Shown in pieces: positions 973-10,065 of a stretch of 10,986 bases of DNA. Under the pieces are notes generated by a model, which saw only the letters and a program-made list of their open reading frames with translations, was not told the DNA's origin and searched no databases. Numbering within the stretch: the first letter of the stretch is position 1; each line of letters starts with the position of its first letter. The position numbers and the translations under genes were made by a program. Origin of the DNA: Lachnospiraceae bacterium UBA2868 (GTDB taxonomy: Bacteria > Bacillota_A > Clostridia > Lachnospirales > Lachnospiraceae); contig DEEW01000174.1 of NCBI GenBank assembly GCA_002350465.1, positions 1 through 10,986 of the forward strand, given 5' to 3'.

Positions 973-1512
973 TTATTCATCGATCATGGAAATGATCATG
1001 TGCGCAGTTTCGCTTAGAGTCCTTCCCATATCCATACTGTTCTTCTGAAGATACCTGTATGCCTCCGGCTCGGTCATGTTGTTTCTTGCCATGAGAAGCA
1101 TCTTCGCCCTGTCTATTGTCTGCTTGTCAAGTGCCGATCTTGAAGGCGCTCTGCCTCGCCCTTTTTGCAGCGCTTCGGGCAGCAGCATTCGGGCGCTGTT
1201 AACAAGATCAGATGTCCTAAAGGGCATCTGAAGAACGATTATATTGCTCGAATACAGACCTAACTGTATATCTTTTGTCAGAAGCAGCATATTAAGCTTC
1301 GGCGGAAGATACCCGTGCAGTTCCTCATACCCCATATCCTTAAGCTTACGGGTACATATGATCAGACTTATGTCCATATCTTCGATCCTGCGCAGTATCT
1401 CAGAACCCGAAGAACATATAAGGGTATCCTCTCCTATCCCGCTCTGTCTGATGATAGATACGATCCGTTCCGAGTCTTCATGTTTGGGCATTGCCACGAT
1501 TATCGCGCCCAT
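973..1512 (-). CDS. ANTAR-domain RNA-binding antiterminator with degenerate receiver domain
   Basis: The protein has 179 residues. The N-terminal part (about 1-112) has receiver-like alternation of strands and helices, but the phosphoacceptor position reads ICTRKLKDM with no aspartate, and the usual conserved lysine is replaced around QMPFR. It is therefore a pseudo-receiver, as in AmiR. Residues about 120-176 form the ANTAR domain: an RAKMLLMARNNMTEPEAYRYL helix pair followed by an RTLSETAHMII helix. ANTAR domains bind paired hairpins in mRNA leaders and prevent terminator formation. In clostridia a similar protein (NitR) is encoded just downstream of glnA. Here the gene starts 18 bases after the glnA-like stop codon, with a good AAGGAGA ribosome site. 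Its likely target is the terminator hairpin in the glnA-like leader at 2845-2878. With no phosphoacceptor visible, activity is probably set by protein partners or ligands; this last point is inference. Confidence 0.9.
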   Translation of the reverse strand: MGAIIVAMPKHEDSERIVSIIRQSGIGEDTLICSSGSEILRRIEDMDISLIICTRKLKDMGYEELHGYLPPKLNMLLLTKDIQLGLYSSNIIVLQMPFRTSDLVNSARMLLPEALQKGRGRAPSRSALDKQTIDRAKMLLMARNNMTEPEAYRYLQKNSMDMGRTLSETAHMIISMIDE

Positions 1513-1530: not shown

Positions 1531-2817
1531 TTACAGTTTTGCCAGATAATTACGAATTTCCCACTCTGTTACCTCAGAGATAAAATCATGCCATTCATCA
1601 CCTTTGATCTTAGTGTAGATATCCGTAAAATCACTGCCTAAAGCATTTTTTACGACATCATCTTTTTGAAGTTCATCCAAAGCTTCCTTAAGATCATCGG
1701 GAAGATGTCCGAATGAGCCGGCGCCTGCAGCAGTCATCTCTTCTCCCGGAGAAACCTTCCGGTTTAGCCCGTCAAGCCCCGCTGCAAAGCATGTGGCAAA
1801 GAGCAGATACGGATTGGCCGCACCGTCGGGGAACCGCATCTCGACCTTGACATCATCCGGTTCCGTTTCAATATTAACGAGTGCCTTTTCTCCCTTTGAT
1901 GCCCAGTTGATCATATAGGGCGCATCAAGTCCCGACAGTAGACGCTTGTATGAGTTGACCGTCGGATTGGCGATGGCAGCAAGCCCTCTCGCATGCTCCA
2001 TTATTCCGCCGGCGAACCACATTGCCTCATCCGAAGGCATTCCGTCAGAATTCATGAAAACATTTTTTCCGTCCTTCATAAGTCTCAGCCGTATATGCAT
2101 TCCCGAGCCGGCAACACCCTGACGCGGCATGGGCATAAATGTTGCATACAATCCGAATCTCTTGGCGATGGATCTGACCGCAAACTTGAAGGTCTGTATG
2201 GAATCCGCCATTACAAATGCATCGTCCTCTTTGAAATCAATTTCATGCTGCGCAGGAGCATGCTCATGATGAGATGACTCTATCTCAAAACCCATCTCCT
2301 CAAGCATCAGAACTATATCTCTTCTTGCGTTTTCACCGAAGTCCACAGGTCCTACATCCATGTATTCAGCCAGCTCATGGGAGGTAGTGGTGGGAAGCCC
2401 GTTTTCATCTGTGTGGAACAGGAAGAATTCACACTCCGGATCGACTATCAGACTGTATCCGGACTCCTTCGCTTTTTCAACCGTTTTCCTTAATATGTAT
2501 CTGGGCGCATTTTCAAAAGGAGTGCCGTCCTCAAGATGAATGTCACAGTATATCTTGGCAACCTTGCCCTGCTGGGGTCTCCACGGAAGTATCCTGAAAG
2601 TGTCGAGATCCGGATACAGATACAGCTTGTCATCAAGGTCATATCTGTTACCGTAAACAGCAGCTCCGTAAAAAGAATACCTGTTGGCAAACACCTTGCT
2701 CATCTGTCCGGGTGTAACCGCTATATTCTTAAGTTTTCCGAAGATATCAGTGAACTGGAGCCTTATGAACTCCACTCCCTCTTCGTCGATCATGCTCAGT
2801 ATGTCTTCTTTTTTCAT
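1531..2817 (-). CDS. Divergent type I glutamine synthetase family protein
   Basis: This 428-residue GlnA-fold protein contains the N-terminal beta-grasp domain and the full catalytic domain; ordinary GSI is about 440-470 residues. Retained metal or substrate residues are E128 and E130 (PECEFF), E185 (HHE), E192 (QHE), H241 (GSGMH), R292 (SYKRL), and E326 and R328 (EMRFPD). Changed sites, aligned from memory to Salmonella GlnA, are: the FDGSS loop is FYGAA, so catalytic D50 is Y50 and S53 is A53; the flap glutamate E327 is D298; NRS is GEK, so R339 is E310; and IRIP is VNIE, so R344 is N315. The position after H241 is R243, where Firmicute enzymes have N. The fold and ATP/glutamate frame look intact, but the ammonium site is altered, so it may ligate another amine to glutamate or act as a sensor. 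The start is fixed by AAGGAGA five bases upstream. It is the first gene of the operon with the ANTAR gene and dapL. I leave the symbol blank because glutamine synthesis is not assured. Confidence 0.88.
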   Translation of the reverse strand: MKKEDILSMIDEEGVEFIRLQFTDIFGKLKNIAVTPGQMSKVFANRYSFYGAAVYGNRYDLDDKLYLYPDLDTFRILPWRPQQGKVAKIYCDIHLEDGTPFENAPRYILRKTVEKAKESGYSLIVDPECEFFLFHTDENGLPTTTSHELAEYMDVGPVDFGENARRDIVLMLEEMGFEIESSHHEHAPAQHEIDFKEDDAFVMADSIQTFKFAVRSIAKRFGLYATFMPMPRQGVAGSGMHIRLRLMKDGKNVFMNSDGMPSDEAMWFAGGIMEHARGLAAIANPTVNSYKRLLSGLDAPYMINWASKGEKALVNIETEPDDVKVEMRFPDGAANPYLLFATCFAAGLDGLNRKVSPGEEMTAAGAGSFGHLPDDLKEALDELQKDDVVKNALGSDFTDIYTKIKGDEWHDFISEVTEWEIRNYLAKL

Positions 2818-2844: not shown

Positions 2845-2878
2845 AAAAAAGCGTCATGAAATAATCCATGACGCCTTT
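2845..2878 (-). terminator. Intrinsic terminator / attenuator in the glnA-like leader
   Basis: On the minus strand an exact 8-bp stem, GCGTCATG (2867-2874) with CATGACGC (2851-2858), closes an 8-base loop and is followed directly by six T (2845-2850). The three A and one G upstream of the stem can pair with the T run to lengthen it to 12 bp. The hairpin lies after the -10 box of the glnA-like promoter and before that gene's ribosome site, so it would stop most new transcripts as well as read-through from the upstream gene. With an ANTAR antiterminator encoded in the same operon, the natural reading is transcription attenuation relieved by that protein. I did not find the standard ANTAR pair of hairpins with A1/G4 hexaloops; the innermost six loop bases are ATTATT, which have A1 but not G4. 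Confidence 0.85.
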
Positions 2879-2924: not shown

Positions 2925-5900
2925 TCATGAATAAACTTTTCCGCCGGTTTTCTGTGGCGATATTCCTATTACCACATGATTTTCATCTCTGTTTCTTGTA
3001 TGAATAGTACGCATTACATATGGTTGCAGTTCATTCTTAATTTTCTTACTGTACAGTATCTCGCAAACCTCCGACGATCCTGCCCATTGCACAAGATTAT
3101 CCTTTGCAAGAGTTGCCAGAAGTCTCTCCCGATCCTCATCCGCCACATGCTTTGTTATCTCTCCTATGCCGGTTTCATAGAACGACGAGCCGTCGGCCTT
3201 AAGCTGCAGTTCGCCTCTCGGTCCCGAATAGAATTCAAGGTAGCAGTCTGACAAGGTATCAATATTGTAAATGCGTTCAAAATCATTTGTAAGAGCCTTG
3301 GAGATGCTTGTGTGATTCCTGCGCTCCTCAGGCAGCTGAGGCATTTTTATATGGCTTCTTTCCTCAAGGAGCGGTGTAAATTCCTCTTTCGGAAGGGGTT
3401 TGGAGAAATAATAACCCTGGACAATATCACATCCCATTGCTTTAAGGGTCAGATACTGCTCTTCGGTTTCAACACCCTCCGCAATCACAGGCACATTCAG
3501 ATAATCGGCAATATCTATGATAAGCTCTATCATCCTCATATCCCGATTTTCGCCGAATGCATTTCTAACAAAGGACATATCGAGCTTTAACACGTCTATG
3601 GGAAGATTGGACAGCATACCCAGAGACGAATAGCCTGTTCCGAAATCATCCATCTCGATCCGAAATCCCATATCCATGCCCCTGAGCTCACCCGCCATGG
3701 AAATGATCTGCTCCGAATCTCCGGTGTAAGCGCTCTCGGTGATCTCAAGAATGATATCATCGGCCGTAAGAGAAAATCTCTCCATGATCTCCTTGAATAT
3801 ACCCTTAAGATCCGGCATCAGCATATCTATTCTCGACACATTAACCGATATAGGAACGGAAAATCCGCAGTCATCCTTGCATTTTCTGATATATTCCGCA
3901 GTCTCGTTCCATACAAACCGGTCGAGCTCCAGGATCAGTCCGTGTTCCTCAAGAAGCGGTATAAACAGTCCCGGACTTATCATACCAAGTTCCGGATGAA
4001 TCCAACGCACAAGAGCTTCCGCACTTGAGAGGATGGGCTTCTTATGCCTGATATCAAACTTCGGCTGGAAGTACACGGTAAAATCCCTGTTATCAAGTCC
4101 GGCTCTGAAGTCCTCAAGAAGACGCTCCCTGAACATCATCTCCTTGTGCATATCCTCATCGTATCTGCCTATGGCATTTATGTAGTCGCCCCGTACATTA
4201 CTTGCAGCCATCTTGGCACGGTCAAAGCGTCTTTCTATATCTATGGATTTGTCCACGTTATAGTAGACTCCCAGCCTCAGGCGTACGATCCGGTCGGAAA
4301 CGGATGTATCCATTCCGTCGGGAAGTTCCAGCCCGTCGCAAAGCTTGTCGGACAGTCGTTCCAGAACATCCGTATAATCATCAGAATGGGGTGTGTACAG
4401 ACAGAATACGTCGGCACTCTGACGGCAGGTAACACCTCCGAGCTTTCTGGCCTGCTGCCGTACCCTCTCACCTACACGTCTAAGCAGCATGTCGCCGAAA
4501 GCTTTGCCGTACCGCTCGTTGATCATATGGAATCTGTTGATATCAACAACAACCGCATCCATTGGATTGTCCGGATAATGCTGGTCGAACAGTTTGACGT
4601 TGCGCTGGAAATAATCGGTAGTAAACAGATTCGTAAGGCTGTCTCTCTGAGTGGAGCTAATAATACTCCTGTCTTCATAGAGCTCTATACACTTGTTGAT
4701 TCTCGCCTTGATAACCTCAGGCAGCGGATAAGGTTTGGGGATAAAATCAGCCGCACCAAGCTTTAAGCATTCCACTTCGGAGTTCTGATCCGATGTCAGT
4801 ACAATAACCGGTATGATCCTGAACTCCGGATCCTCCTTCAGTCTGCCAAGGAGTTCCACTCCTCCCATTTTGGGCATCATAATGTCAAGCATTACAAGGG
4901 CAATATCTTCCCTGTGCTCAACCAGTTTTTCAAGTGCATCCTCACCGTCCGAAGCGTACAGCACTTCGTAATCATCCTCGATCATGTTGCCGAGAAGCTG
5001 CTGGTTGATCAGTTCATCATCAACGATCAGAATGCTTCTTCTGACATTCAGAATAACACTCTCATCTATGAATCCCTCAGGAAGCGATGATACGGAAGTG
5101 TTCTCAGGTACGGTCTGTGCCTCATCATCTCTTGACGCGGCTCCAAGACTCTTTAAGAGTTTCTTTTCTTCATACATCTTCTTGTCGGCTCTGTTGAAGA
5201 CGTTATTGACCTCAAAATCAATGTCGGGGATATAATCCGAGATACCGCCCGAAACAACAGCGCCGCCGTTTGTTATATGGTCTTTGGATCTCTCATGCAA
5301 TATACGCATAAGTTCTCCCCTGATGCTGTAATCCCTTCCGGATACGATCACCAGGAATTCGTCTCCCCCCACTCTGTATATAGGACTGTGCTGGAATATC
5401 TCTCCGATCATCCTTGCGGACGCAATGATGTATTCATCCCCTGCCTTGTGTCCGAGTGTATCGTTGACCTTTTTCAGGCCGTTTAGATCGCAGACGACAA
5501 TCGCAAAATTCCTGACGGTTCCCGCAAGAATCGTTTCGTTGATCTCCTTCTCCCGGACAAAATAGGCATGCTTGTTCCTGACTCCCGTCATGGAATCGGT
5601 ATTGGCTCTCATCTCGCTTTCGAGGGATCGTTTCGACATATATGTATGATTGGTAAGCATTACGGCAAGGACAAACGCAAAAACGATCATGGTGATGAAC
5701 ACAACATTTGTCGTGATGTTCTCCCTCATAGCGAACTGGCTTTCAATAAACGCCTCTACTTCCGCAGCTTCAACGCTGTCGGCCTCCGCAATGCTCTCAT
5801 AATGCTCGAGAACAGCCGCCTTGGTGGAGTCATCCGTAGCAAGCATCGACTGTTTCATCCACACAAACGCCACAAAAAAGACAAGGCTCATAAGCGCTAC

Positions 5901-7316
5901 CCATACTATGGCCGATGAGCCGAAACGTTTCTCTGTATCTCTCTTCAATATGTACCTGAAATACGCAAAGCCGAGAACACTCCATACTATGAACAGCAGG
6001 AATGTTTCCTTTGAGATCGTGCTTCTCGTTACAATGTCGGGAATAAGCAGGTAACTGCCGAATACCGCCATCAGGACAAGTCCGATATAACCAAACCTCG
6101 CCTCGTTCTTATCTCCCGAATCCTTTGCAAGTTTAACCGCAGAAGCACAGGTAAGTGCATAGATAATAGTCGCTCCTATCGTGGTTACGTCCACAATCCA
6201 GCCTATTGCTGTTCTTCCCACAAAGGGAATAATTAATGATACAGCCCCAACAAGCACAACAGCCCTCTTCGGAATCCCGTTATCGTATATCCTGTCCAGT
6301 TTCCCCGGCAAAACCCTGTCCTTGGACAGAGAATAAAACAGTCTGCCGATAGCACTTATGTTGCCAAAAAGGCTTGTGATGACAAGGGACAGCAGGACAA
6401 GCATCAGTATATACACACCACTGTCTCCCATATAGTAATGTGCCGCATAAAAAGGCGGAAGAGCTTCTATTCCGCTAAGATTGCCGATATCCGCAATATA
6501 CTCAGTCCAGTTTGAATACCTGTCGGGATATGCGGTAACGGACATAAGAGTAATCATTATATACAAGGCAAGCGTTATTGTTACCGATACTGTAAAAATC
6601 CTGCCAAGCTTTCGTCTGTCGAATGTAAACTCCTCAGTAAAATGCGAGATATTCTCAAACCCGATAAAAGCCCATGGTGAGATAACGGCTATCTCCACAA
6701 TCTGCTTTACGGCATTTGTATCTTCGATAAAATAGGGCTTTCCCACAATGCCTCCGCCGGACAGTGCCGACACAAAGCAAACCGCTATTCCAAGTATAAG
6801 TATTCCGGCGAGAACAACCATAACCGTATCAACCGCACGCTTGAAATTGGCGCAGATAAGTGTAGCCACTGCCGTAGCCGCAATCGACAGAAGTATTTCA
6901 CCGAAATAAACGTCATATCCGAAAATCGTATAAAGTTTTCCTACCTTGAACAGTCCCCCCAGAAATATACGCCCGAAGAGAGGAAGTGATGTGATATTGG
7001 CCCATAGTATCGCCAGATACGTCATGGCCAGAAACCATGCTGACAGAAATCCGTAGTCGTATCCCAGCACTTCTTTGGAGTAACTGTATGCTCCTCCTGC
7101 CTCGGGATACATCCTCATCAGATATGTGTAGCTCCGGCTGATAATAAGCATTGCTACTGCGCCGATGATAAGGCCCAGCACACTGCCTGCCGGTCCGGCA
7201 CCTGCCAGATATGTATTACATGTTACAACAAGGGAGCCCCATCCGATGCTTGTGCCTATGGAAAATGCAAGCGCAGCAAGCGGCGACATATGCTTTTTCA
7301 GTTGATTTTCATTCAT
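2925..7316 (-). CDS. APC-family amino acid permease fused to GGDEF-REC-GGDEF-EAL-PAS c-di-GMP signalling module
   Basis: I take ATG at 7316 as the start (1463 residues), because AGAGGG lies 8 bases upstream; the in-frame GTG at 7325 overlaps that site. Residues 8-455 are a 12-helix APC permease, with the helix-1 motif GTSIGWGSLVV and FENISHFTEEF in helix 6. Two further helices (about 467-487 and 537-556) flank an acidic outside loop. GGDEF domain 1 (about 570-715) is intact (D610, GGDEF 650-654) with no RxxD inhibitory site. A receiver (760-878) has D766/D767, phosphoacceptor D811, T841 and K861. GGDEF domain 2 (887-1050) has SADVF (967-971) in place of GGDEF and is probably inactive. The EAL domain (1072-1315) keeps E1100, N1159, E1191, D1223/D1224, K1244, E1280 and Q1300, so it is probably an active c-di-GMP phosphodiesterase. 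Residues about 335-1453 from the end region, specifically 1335-1453, form a PAS-like tail. The likely role is membrane sensing or uptake of an amino acid linked to c-di-GMP level; the ligand is unknown. Confidence 0.92.
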   Translation of the reverse strand: MNENQLKKHMSPLAALAFSIGTSIGWGSLVVTCNTYLAGAGPAGSVLGLIIGAVAMLIISRSYTYLMRMYPEAGGAYSYSKEVLGYDYGFLSAWFLAMTYLAILWANITSLPLFGRIFLGGLFKVGKLYTIFGYDVYFGEILLSIAATAVATLICANFKRAVDTVMVVLAGILILGIAVCFVSALSGGGIVGKPYFIEDTNAVKQIVEIAVISPWAFIGFENISHFTEEFTFDRRKLGRIFTVSVTITLALYIMITLMSVTAYPDRYSNWTEYIADIGNLSGIEALPPFYAAHYYMGDSGVYILMLVLLSLVITSLFGNISAIGRLFYSLSKDRVLPGKLDRIYDNGIPKRAVVLVGAVSLIIPFVGRTAIGWIVDVTTIGATIIYALTCASAVKLAKDSGDKNEARFGYIGLVLMAVFGSYLLIPDIVTRSTISKETFLLFIVWSVLGFAYFRYILKRDTEKRFGSSAIVWVALMSLVFFVAFVWMKQSMLATDDSTKAAVLEHYESIAEADSVEAAEVEAFIESQFAMRENITTNVVFITMIVFAFVLAVMLTNHTYMSKRSLESEMRANTDSMTGVRNKHAYFVREKEINETILAGTVRNFAIVVCDLNGLKKVNDTLGHKAGDEYIIASARMIGEIFQHSPIYRVGGDEFLVIVSGRDYSIRGELMRILHERSKDHITNGGAVVSGGISDYIPDIDFEVNNVFNRADKKMYEEKKLLKSLGAASRDDEAQTVPENTSVSSLPEGFIDESVILNVRRSILIVDDELINQQLLGNMIEDDYEVLYASDGEDALEKLVEHREDIALVMLDIMMPKMGGVELLGRLKEDPEFRIIPVIVLTSDQNSEVECLKLGAADFIPKPYPLPEVIKARINKCIELYEDRSIISSTQRDSLTNLFTTDYFQRNVKLFDQHYPDNPMDAVVVDINRFHMINERYGKAFGDMLLRRVGERVRQQARKLGGVTCRQSADVFCLYTPHSDDYTDVLERLSDKLCDGLELPDGMDTSVSDRIVRLRLGVYYNVDKSIDIERRFDRAKMAASNVRGDYINAIGRYDEDMHKEMMFRERLLEDFRAGLDNRDFTVYFQPKFDIRHKKPILSSAEALVRWIHPELGMISPGLFIPLLEEHGLILELDRFVWNETAEYIRKCKDDCGFSVPISVNVSRIDMLMPDLKGIFKEIMERFSLTADDIILEITESAYTGDSEQIISMAGELRGMDMGFRIEMDDFGTGYSSLGMLSNLPIDVLKLDMSFVRNAFGENRDMRMIELIIDIADYLNVPVIAEGVETEEQYLTLKAMGCDIVQGYYFSKPLPKEEFTPLLEERSHIKMPQLPEERRNHTSISKALTNDFERIYNIDTLSDCYLEFYSGPRGELQLKADGSSFYETGIGEITKHVADEDRERLLATLAKDNLVQWAGSSEVCEILYSKKIKNELQPYVMRTIHTRNRDENHVVIGISPQKTGGKVYS

Positions 7317-7324
7317 ACCGTGCA

Positions 7325-7330
7325 CCCTCT
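7325..7330 (-). promoter_or_regulatory. Ribosome binding site that sets the start of the permease-signalling gene
   Basis: AGAGGG on the minus strand ends 8 bases before ATG at 7316. The alternative GTG at 7325 begins on the last base of this site and could not be served by it. This favours the ATG start, which is three codons shorter. Confidence 0.7.
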
Positions 7331-9393: not shown

Positions 9394-10065
9394 TCAGTCT
9401 GCCTCGTCAAGAAGCCCGATGATGATCCGCTCCCATTCTTCACCGCTTTTCGATCCCAGCATGGGGCCTGCCAGCAGGTTTCCACTTTCATCGACAAAGA
9501 ATGTGGTTGGAACTGCCGTTATCTGCGCGTACCCTACGAGATCCGCACTTGCGAAGCATATCGGATATTCCACACCGGTCTGCTCCAGTATATCATCCGC
9601 ATCCTTAAGAATATCCTGTATCAGGCCACCCTTTTCATAATCGGTCGCATCTGTTGTCACGCCCACGATCTCAAACCCTTTATCCTTGTATTCCTTCTCG
9701 ATCCTGGCCAGTTCGGGCATTTCACCGATGCAGGGTCCACAGAAGGTTGCCCAGAAATTGATCATTGTTACCTTGTTTCCGGTTACATATTCGGACAGCT
9801 TCTGTTCATTTTGGGATCTGTCGTATACCGCAAAACCCGTAAGTTTTTCTTCCGGGACAGTTTCATTCACAGTTTCATTCACAGTTTCGTTCGCAGGTTC
9901 ATTCACAGCTTCATTCACAGGTTCATTCGCAGTTTCATTCGCAGGTTCATTCACAGTTTCATTCGCAGATTCATTCACAGCTTCATTCGTGCTTTCACAG
10001 GCTGTTGTTAAGCCCACAACAAGTATAAAAGCGATCATTAAAATAAGTGTTGTTCTCTTCTTCAT
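9394..10065 (-). CDS. TlpA/ResA-like thioredoxin-fold lipoprotein with tetrapeptide-repeat linker
   Basis: This 223-residue protein begins with a basic and hydrophobic signal peptide (1-22) ending in LTTAC, so C23 is the likely lipidated cysteine and the protein sits on the outer face of the membrane. Residues 27-70 are eleven units of N-E-x-V/A (x mostly T, P, A or S), an acidic, probably extended spacer. The thioredoxin domain spans about 75-220, with the active site WATFCGPC (C109, C112) and cis-proline P186 in AVPTTF; an additional cysteine is at C170. TlpA/ResA proteins reduce or exchange disulfides in exported proteins and usually receive electrons from CcdA, which is not encoded here. 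The start is supported by GGGAGG seven bases upstream. It is the first gene of the operon with Nudix and MATE genes. The partner and substrate are unknown. Confidence 0.92.
   Translation of the reverse strand: MKKRTTLILMIAFILVVGLTTACESTNEAVNESANETVNEPANETANEPVNEAVNEPANETVNETVNETVPEEKLTGFAVYDRSQNEQKLSEYVTGNKVTMINFWATFCGPCIGEMPELARIEKEYKDKGFEIVGVTTDATDYEKGGLIQDILKDADDILEQTGVEYPICFASADLVGYAQITAVPTTFFVDESGNLLAGPMLGSKSGEEWERIIIGLLDEAD
9856..9987 (-). repeat. Eleven-unit 12-bp in-frame tandem repeat in the lipoprotein gene
   Basis: On the plus strand the unit is close to NTTCATTC(A/G)CAG, repeated in register from 9861 with the copy nearest 9992 degenerate. On the coding strand it gives eleven N-E-x-V/A units. 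Units differ mainly at the codon for x and at the V/A codon, while the N-E codons are almost fixed. A 12-bp period keeps frame whatever the copy number, so the linker length could vary between strains without breaking the protein. Confidence 0.92.

Follow-up and report, generated by a model that had tools for sequence, protein, structure and literature searches.

The 10,986-nucleotide stretch analyzed here (the window; contig DEEW01000174.1 of Lachnospiraceae bacterium UBA2868, assembly GCA_002350465.1) encodes on its minus strand one polypeptide in which an APC permease of 12 transmembrane (TM) helices is joined, through a further pair of TM helices, to a GGDEF domain (GGDEF1), a receiver (REC) domain, a degenerate GGDEF domain (GGDEF*), an EAL domain, and a PAS-like tail. 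We propose, with a probability of roughly 0.6, that this protein is a membrane receptor-enzyme: the permease would be a sensory input that acts through the TM13/TM14 hairpin on GGDEF1, and the EAL half would be controlled by a phosphorelay. In a broader and more tentative proposal, to which we give a little less than even odds, the protein represents an undescribed class of nutrient receptors, in which APC permeases have given up ordinary proton-coupled transport and drive exchangeable outputs through the hairpin, and of which the window's branch captured a phosphodiesterase partner to become a two-input switch.

In the proposed mechanism, ligand occupancy of the permease, or its transport conformation, would shift or tilt TM12/TM13. 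The shift would travel through the long TM13–TM14 hairpin, probably dimeric, into GGDEF1 and alter, in one direction or the other, its dimerization and hence its diguanylate cyclase activity. Phosphorylation of the receiver would act on the degenerate GGDEF and EAL domains, the back half being a phosphorelay-controlled phosphodiesterase of cyclic di-GMP (c-di-GMP) that was once a separate neighboring gene. The joined chain would weigh a nutrient signal (synthesis) against a phosphate signal from a hybrid kinase and HPt protein (breakdown) at one membrane site. An amino acid, or a compound closely related to one, is the likeliest ligand.

The fusion gene and its family

The gene is a single intact frame with 1463 codons open, from an ATG at 7316–7314 to a TGA stop at 2925–2927, and has no internal stops (the open reading frame [ORF] as called spans 2925–7325 on the minus strand; the gene was taken from the ATG, 2925–7316). 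Pfam assigns AA_permease_2 to residues 11–425, GGDEF to 571–719 (in two stretches), Response_reg to 762–870, and EAL to 1069–1307, all well above curated cut-offs; no HisKA, HATPase, PilZ, or Ammonium_transp match was found in the protein. At E ≤ 0.1, the membrane part matches two APC models and, beyond these, just Arch_flagellin at 534–577, which is below threshold, with no SLC5 or STAC-type match. By its matches, the membrane part is classed with the two APC models and not with SLC5 (the family of CbrA) or Amt.

A homolog search scored 7988 candidates and found 917, of which 120 were listed and examined. All but one of these (119/120, including the window's near-copy P0001) are full-length, at 1305 aa or more, with the same precomputed Pfam domains; the other, P0120, is a 993-aa partial. 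The nearest relatives examined are 98% (G001), 90% (G027), and 60–62% (G036, G033, and G023) identical and each has the fusion as one frame, the single TGA reported for G036 being the gene's own stop. The 90% identical copy (G027/L032) is on a 154-kb contig, and Lachnospiraceae bacterium AC2029 has a copy on a 3.86-Mb contig (L042), with 61% identity over the permease. Between the window and G027 copies, dN/dS is 0.07 in the permease, 0.07 in the hairpin, 0.013 in GGDEF1, 0.025 in EAL, and 0.01–0.10 over all domains, with dS near saturation in some of them; these ratios point to purifying selection on all domains.

An earlier note on this DNA, made from the letters alone, had claimed one frame without stop or frameshift and had raised an assembly error, or absence of the fusion from close relatives, as grounds for doubt. 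The frame is borne out and neither doubt is. Split versions consisting of two genes do occur (L093 and others), as might be expected if assembly or annotation had joined two genes, but the 119 full-length clusters among the listed homologs, the one-frame relatives, and the copies on the 3.86-Mb and 154-kb contigs rule out assembly error and leave an artefact of either kind a negligible probability. The fusion is real and its occurrence is far beyond chance. Restriction to one species was also considered and is rejected by a scan of named genomes. Among the long fusions found elsewhere, two have in-frame stops (L066, 7997–11917; L083, 7749–12089) and one a frame break (L109, 7932–12244), each of which may be a pseudogene, an error, or recoding.

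The window chain is one branch of a larger, widespread family. Genomes of the same genus have the permease-hairpin fused to GGDEF alone, a PAS-type stretch, or hybrid kinases. The permease search alignment consisted of 14 fused rows and 1 stand-alone row, thus favoring fused forms in the scans of named genomes, family, and order; a second alignment took 76 of 80 available relatives. Domains were called with small self-built hidden Markov models, and Pfam was used to check 11 fused proteins besides the window's. In the scan of named genomes with a permease-hairpin alignment, the best 80 of 586 relatives are fusions without exception (80/80). They comprise 29 long forms (including the interrupted L066, L083, and L109, and L103, which a contig end cuts off), 45 short APC-GGDEF forms, one PAS-GGDEF form (L113), two histidine kinase-REC forms (L092 and L116), and three HD-GYP forms (L064, L097, and L090, of which the last ends as the output begins, leaving few residues). 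Hosts of these 80, named from record titles that are mostly of metagenome bins, are mostly Bacillota but extend to Coriobacteria, Treponema, Anaerolineaceae/Chloroflexi, and one Desulfovibrio, whose short contig may be misbinned; many titles point to the rumen or gut of ruminants. Some loci (L105, 4544–14706; also L083, L084, L060, and L061) carry two or three permease-sensor genes that differ in their outputs.

A sample of 397 genomes from the family yielded 41 matches at E ≤ 1e-100, spread over 33 of the genomes: 33 of the matches are signaling fusions that extend past TM12, seven are stand-alone permeases that do not, and one is cut by a contig end. Histidine kinase is the commonest output (27 of the 33 fusions), followed by three long forms and three GGDEF fusions; two of the latter are about 1200 aa, and the one of these checked with Pfam (L149) carries PAS_4. 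The seven stand-alone permeases are about 450–505 aa; the match cut by a contig end is L170, which stops before TM12 is complete. In the order, 27 of the 295 genomes scanned gave a match at E ≤ 1e-60; the three matches that run through to the hairpin's end each lie within a long frame (826, 990, and 1469 aa).

On a quick tree built from 97 permease domains, the minimum under parsimony is 12 changes over seven output classes, in which split pairs and stand-alone permeases are each a class, relative to a mean of 39.9 after shuffling. This suggests that outputs were exchanged several times, with fewer exchanges forced by well-supported branches alone (trees have SH-aLRT support only and many open forks; permease pieces of <330 residues and back halves of <400 were left out). 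The permease and its membrane-spanning hairpin are a mobile input module, and the reuse of the permease with other kinds of output lends independent support to a sensing role. The interpretation of the earlier note stands in its fusion, domain order, motifs, and TM1/TM6 backbone, but not in its picture of a unique chain. In another branch of the permease subfamily (L135, L136, and L137), permeases without a hairpin are fused to an iron-containing alcohol dehydrogenase-like domain, recognized with Pfam in L135 and by reading the tails in the other two.

The permease and the hairpin as a proposed input

The complete 12-helix APC permease of the earlier note is upheld: PF13520 matches above cut-off, and the predicted structure is a LeuT/APC fold, complete with 12 TM helices (structural matches for the LeuT-type fold cover model residues 3–469). 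The TM1 residues G25-W26-G27 are invariant wherever letters are present (95 of 97 rows of the permease alignment). In TM6, W215, A216, G219, and F220 are in 97/97, and position 221 is E in 95 and D in two. Mean entropy is 0.43 bits in 15 pocket columns versus 1.52 bits in 295 other TM columns (p = 3e-6). Judging from these residues, the unwound TM1 and TM6 substrate-binding backbone is retained; its loss, which the note had held would argue against amino acid sensing, is not seen at G25/G27 or A216/G219.

Between the permease and GGDEF1 is an element that the earlier note, although right that the two are in one chain, did not mention. Hydropathy has two further peaks past TM12, at residues 469–487 and 536–554, around a stretch of about 50 residues. 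An AlphaFold model of residues 1–735 (pLDDT 90.7 and pTM 0.80; 77-row alignment) predicts a helical hairpin of residues 470–511 and 517–571, with the second helix unbroken up to the start of GGDEF1. The model is confident into GGDEF1 and the hairpin blocks have a pLDDT of 74–90. When 29 fusions were scanned for hydropathy past TM12, two peaks were found in 27 and one in L161 and L167; stand-alone permeases have none. L025, a stand-alone relative, stops just past TM12 and so lacks the hairpin. Conversely, no hairpin-bearing protein without an output was seen, though such a protein would have scored high in the permease-hairpin scans. Among the sequences examined, the extra TM pair and a signaling output go together, and the hairpin is the likely coupling element between permease and output.

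The same hairpin raises the alternative that it is the true sensor, an extracytoplasmic element resembling a four-helix bundle when dimerized, with the permease as scaffold or anchor. The predicted course of its two long helices, which leave the membrane and run into the output, fits this alternative, as does the presence of the extra TM pair in signaling fusions and not in the stand-alone permeases examined. However, conservation is lower in the hairpin than in the permease (mean majority of 0.57 vs. 0.69), several kinase forms have a short or reduced hairpin (L133, L134, and some of L159–L167), and near-invariant pocket columns would be needless in an anchor. We consider a hairpin sensor unlikely relative to a receptor with the permease as its sensory part.

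Several observations nevertheless weigh against a permease that senses an amino acid. Turns in TM1 and TM6 are commonly conserved in APC proteins, and their conservation speaks to retention, not sensing. The carboxylate-binding turn has W26 in place of GkApcT Thr43, so an ordinary alpha-amino acid may not be the ligand. Across TM5 residues 168–182 of the window protein, the region of GkApcT Lys191, there is no K, R, H, D, E, N, or Q in any of the 97 sequences, and the position of GkApcT Glu115 in TM3 is T99 in 82 of 97 and an acid in none of 97. Sensing could reside in the hairpin instead. Last, nitrogen-assimilation genes were recognized beside 4 of 30 long forms, and neighbors are not conserved.

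With the TM5 lysine and TM3 glutamate missing, proton-coupled transport as in GkApcT is doubtful. In GkApcT, Lys191 is needed for transport and the Lys191Ala variant binds yet does not transport (PMC5803215; this and the other papers cited are drawn on in excerpts). A pocket that appears to be kept while the GkApcT-type transport lysine is missing makes a receptor with little or no transport plausible. The lysine is also absent in L025 and in 11 stand-alone relatives examined; its loss is therefore a trait of the wider subfamily rather than of sensors and was rejected as a sensor-specific mark. L025 (2760–4193), from the same genus, offers a natural control for transport.

These residues also bear on two alternatives in which transport is kept. 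The permease may be a working transporter, with c-di-GMP enzymes that only localize or feed back and with no sensing of a ligand. Its complete 12-TM fold and the purifying selection on it are consistent with such a function, but outputs that include kinases and HD-GYP fit an input role, there is neither a PilZ match nor an I-site for an effect of c-di-GMP on transport, and the TM5 lysine is absent, leaving this alternative improbable. In a true transceptor, transport itself, rather than occupancy, would drive the signal, as considered for CbrA, a kinase-bearing protein that binds histidine and imports it (PMC13022988) and that has the same LeuT-type fold. Given that the TM5 lysine and TM3 glutamate are missing and that GkApcT Lys191Ala binds without transport (PMC5803215), we regard a transceptor as quite improbable here.

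The back half and the genes around the fusion

Conservation of residues in the signaling domains refers to the 119 full-length homologs among those listed. In GGDEF1, D610, N618, G651, D652, and E653 are in 119/119, G650 is in 118/119 (one has Ala), and F654 is replaced by Tyr in one; we take D610 to be the metal-binding Asp and N618 the substrate Asn. On these motifs GGDEF1 is predicted to be an active diguanylate cyclase. The 119 homologs lack the RxxD I-site, through which product inhibition acts, and have F/Y in place of its R and S in place of its D. The receiver has D811 in 118/119, T841 in 115/119, and K861 in 119/119, presumably its phospho-acceptor Asp, Thr, and Lys. The second GGDEF domain is degenerate, as the earlier note had called it, having SADVF in the window and the motif E replaced in 119/119. 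The EAL domain has E1100, N1159, E1191, D1223, D1224, K1244, and E1280 in 119/119; assuming that these seven are the catalytic residues of the EAL fold, it is predicted to be an active phosphodiesterase. The order of domains and the intact motifs reported earlier thus agree with Pfam and with conservation.

Pfam matches nothing in the C-terminal 150 residues. Their model (pLDDT 79) has a PAS topology, in keeping with the PAS-like end described earlier, and the best Foldseek matches are mostly PAS/Cache but weak (best E of 1.7e-3 and none under 1e-3). Of the 30 distinct listed long forms, among them L103 with its truncation at a contig end, 17 have the tail, which makes it an optional extra.

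REC-GGDEF*-EAL also occurs as a separate protein. A quick midpoint-rooted tree of 60 REC-GGDEF*-EAL units unites the 30 fused rows as a single clade (SH-aLRT of 100). Thirteen separate rows group with the fused clade, and 12 of them (L055, L056, L065, L069, L073, L075, L077, L078, L085, L088, L089, and L093) adjoin a short APC-GGDEF gene of the same orientation, with an HPt gene between the two in L069. Such split pairs account for 12 of 49 APC-hairpin-GGDEF genes of L041–L120 (L113 counted). In nine split pairs, the distance from the first stop to the first possible second start is 6–76 bases in eight, and in L056 the ATG overlaps the stop. The fused clade, together with separate relatives beside short APC-GGDEF genes, indicates that the window protein is a joined pair. 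Separate units of L105 and L107, near other APC sensors, are placed elsewhere on the tree on long branches. In the permease tree, long forms are in at least two groups, which points either to a single joining followed by exchange of front ends or to repeated joining and splitting.

Genes of phosphorelay type are found near the separate units. HPt genes adjoin separate REC-GGDEF*-EAL genes in L036, L039, L040 (confirmed with Pfam), L069, L089, L105, and L107 and are near them in L037, L038, and L073, and hybrid kinases adjoin five split pairs (L056, L073, L075, L077, and L078; by Pfam, the kinase of L077 is PAS-PAS-HK-REC, HK being histidine kinase). From these neighbors we infer that the receiver is fed by a phosphorelay and that one polypeptide probably integrates two signals. 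The earlier note's single signaling chain hence holds as one polypeptide, but its back half is a joined neighbor gene and probably a second signal input.

Features of the window are given in the table. The glutamine synthetase gene glnA is also beside the fusion in L031/L041 (same species) and in L032, and in the window copy and G027, which are one lineage, both glnA and the ANTAR regulator gene are beside it. ANTAR is an RNA-binding antiterminator type of domain. The downstream neighbor of glnA encodes an ANTAR regulator; the stem-loop between the fusion and glnA is possibly an ANTAR-controlled attenuator of glnA. The stem-loop is missing from the list of the terminator scan; promoter and terminator scans of the window had no excess over shuffles, and Rfam matched nothing in the window at E ≤ 1. 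Elsewhere, glutamine synthetase, an Amt-PII fusion, GATase, and an Ala symporter are around the fusion in L034/L043, and AsnB and an Ala symporter are beside it in L035/L044, with a glutamate-synthase-type GATase 4.5 kb away. Neighbors were judged by eye from the nearest ORFs, with Pfam used for the window, L034, and L035; by eye, no nitrogen-assimilation neighbor was recognized for the other 26 of 30 long forms, but several of these lie at the end of a contig, and the ORF lists contain many that are not genuine genes. For these reasons nitrogen context was not relied on as a key to the ligand. The Amt-PII fusion of L034 (1714–3465), an ammonium transporter fused to a P-II protein, is two genes upstream of the long fusion. 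In the window, 9394–10065 encodes a TlpA/thioredoxin-like protein in which an N-terminal hydrophobic stretch is followed by a low-complexity, NE-rich repeat.

Table. Positions in the window of the fusion gene, its parts, and neighboring features (res, residues of the fusion protein)
Feature	Position	Strand	Remarks
Whole fusion gene	2925..7316	minus	1463 aa, ATG start, TGA stop
APC permease, 12 TM helices (res 11–460)	5937..7286	minus	
TM1 unwound motif G25-W26-G27 (GkApcT G42-T43-G44)	7236..7244	minus	mapping by alignment
TM6 P214-WAFIGFE221 (GkApcT F231 gate = W215, D237 = E221)	6654..6677	minus	mapping by alignment
TM13, extracytoplasmic helices, TM14, signaling helix (res 461–571)	5604..5936	minus	predicted; AF2 model, hydropathy
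GGDEF1 (res 571–719)	5160..5606	minus	active site intact, RxxD I-site absent; Pfam, conserved residues
Receiver domain (res 762–870)	4707..5033	minus	Pfam, conserved residues
Degenerate GGDEF (res 885–1052)	4161..4664	minus	SADVF at motif position
EAL phosphodiesterase domain (res 1069–1307)	3396..4112	minus	Pfam E 1.2e-57
PAS-like C-terminal domain (res 1338–1454), optional	2955..3305	minus	structure model
14-bp stem-loop then U run, between fusion and glnA	2847..2878	minus	z −2.65, terminator-like
Glutamine synthetase glnA, next gene	1531..2817	minus	PF00120
ANTAR response regulator	973..1512	minus	PF03861

Comparison with known systems

LysP is an APC-class permease. Together with CadC it is a case of a permease that also acts in signaling (PMC12764776), but its partner is a separate transcription factor and c-di-GMP is not involved. 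GkApcT, the SLC7 CAT and LAT transporters, and AdiC are without signaling domains, and GkApcT has the TM5 Lys191 and TM3 Glu115 that the fusion family lacks. Neither 5TMR modules nor MASE domains are 12-TM APC permeases. They are nonetheless alike in being membrane input modules with exchangeable outputs: 5TMR is an integral membrane input module with outputs that include GGDEF, EAL, and histidine kinase, and a 5TMR-NRAMP fusion is another transporter joined to a receptor (PMC11109136), while MASE-type membrane sensor domains are on GGDEF proteins (named in PMC8846402). With RmcA and STM1987, which are arginine-responsive c-di-GMP enzymes, a single enzyme changes c-di-GMP in response to an amino acid (PMC8846402), but sensing is by periplasmic SBP_bac_3 or dCache domains and not by a permease.

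The idea of a transporter as receptor is already known, whereas the permease-hairpin-output family is apparently undescribed in open-license literature. No description of an APC-GGDEF or APC-kinase fusion was found among the papers listed from that literature, subscription papers being mostly outside the search, and the earlier note likewise named no characterized APC-GGDEF-REC-GGDEF-EAL protein. As excerpted, the main text of a census of c-di-GMP sensory domains lacks the word "permease" (PMC8846402), and GGDEF or diguanylate does not occur in PMC7918813 or PMC10433425. Many c-di-GMP enzymes have no known input, and a 12-TM permease input would couple nutrient supply directly to c-di-GMP in bacteria of the gut and rumen. 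Moreover, the same input with cyclase, HD-GYP, and kinase outputs, in fused and split versions, makes the question of how transporters become receptors testable with natural parts.

The closest parallels are fusions to kinases. As far as compared in the excerpts, none of CbrA, Ks-Amt5, and LysP/CadC has c-di-GMP outputs or a hairpin of this kind. Ks-Amt5 of Kuenenia, an Amt-histidine kinase, is a transporter fold turned receptor with transport lost (PMC5764959); it differs in its Amt fold, trimeric state, and kinase output, and excerpts of that paper mention no hairpin. CbrA of Pseudomonas (SLC5-STAC-PAS-histidine kinase) binds and transports histidine (PMC13022988), and together with Ks-Amt5 indicates that transporter folds can be receptors. 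Like the window protein, CbrA has a LeuT-type transporter fold and a signaling output in one chain, but the permease is SLC5 rather than APC, a soluble STAC domain stands where the window protein has the predicted TM13/TM14 hairpin, and the output is a histidine kinase rather than c-di-GMP enzymes.

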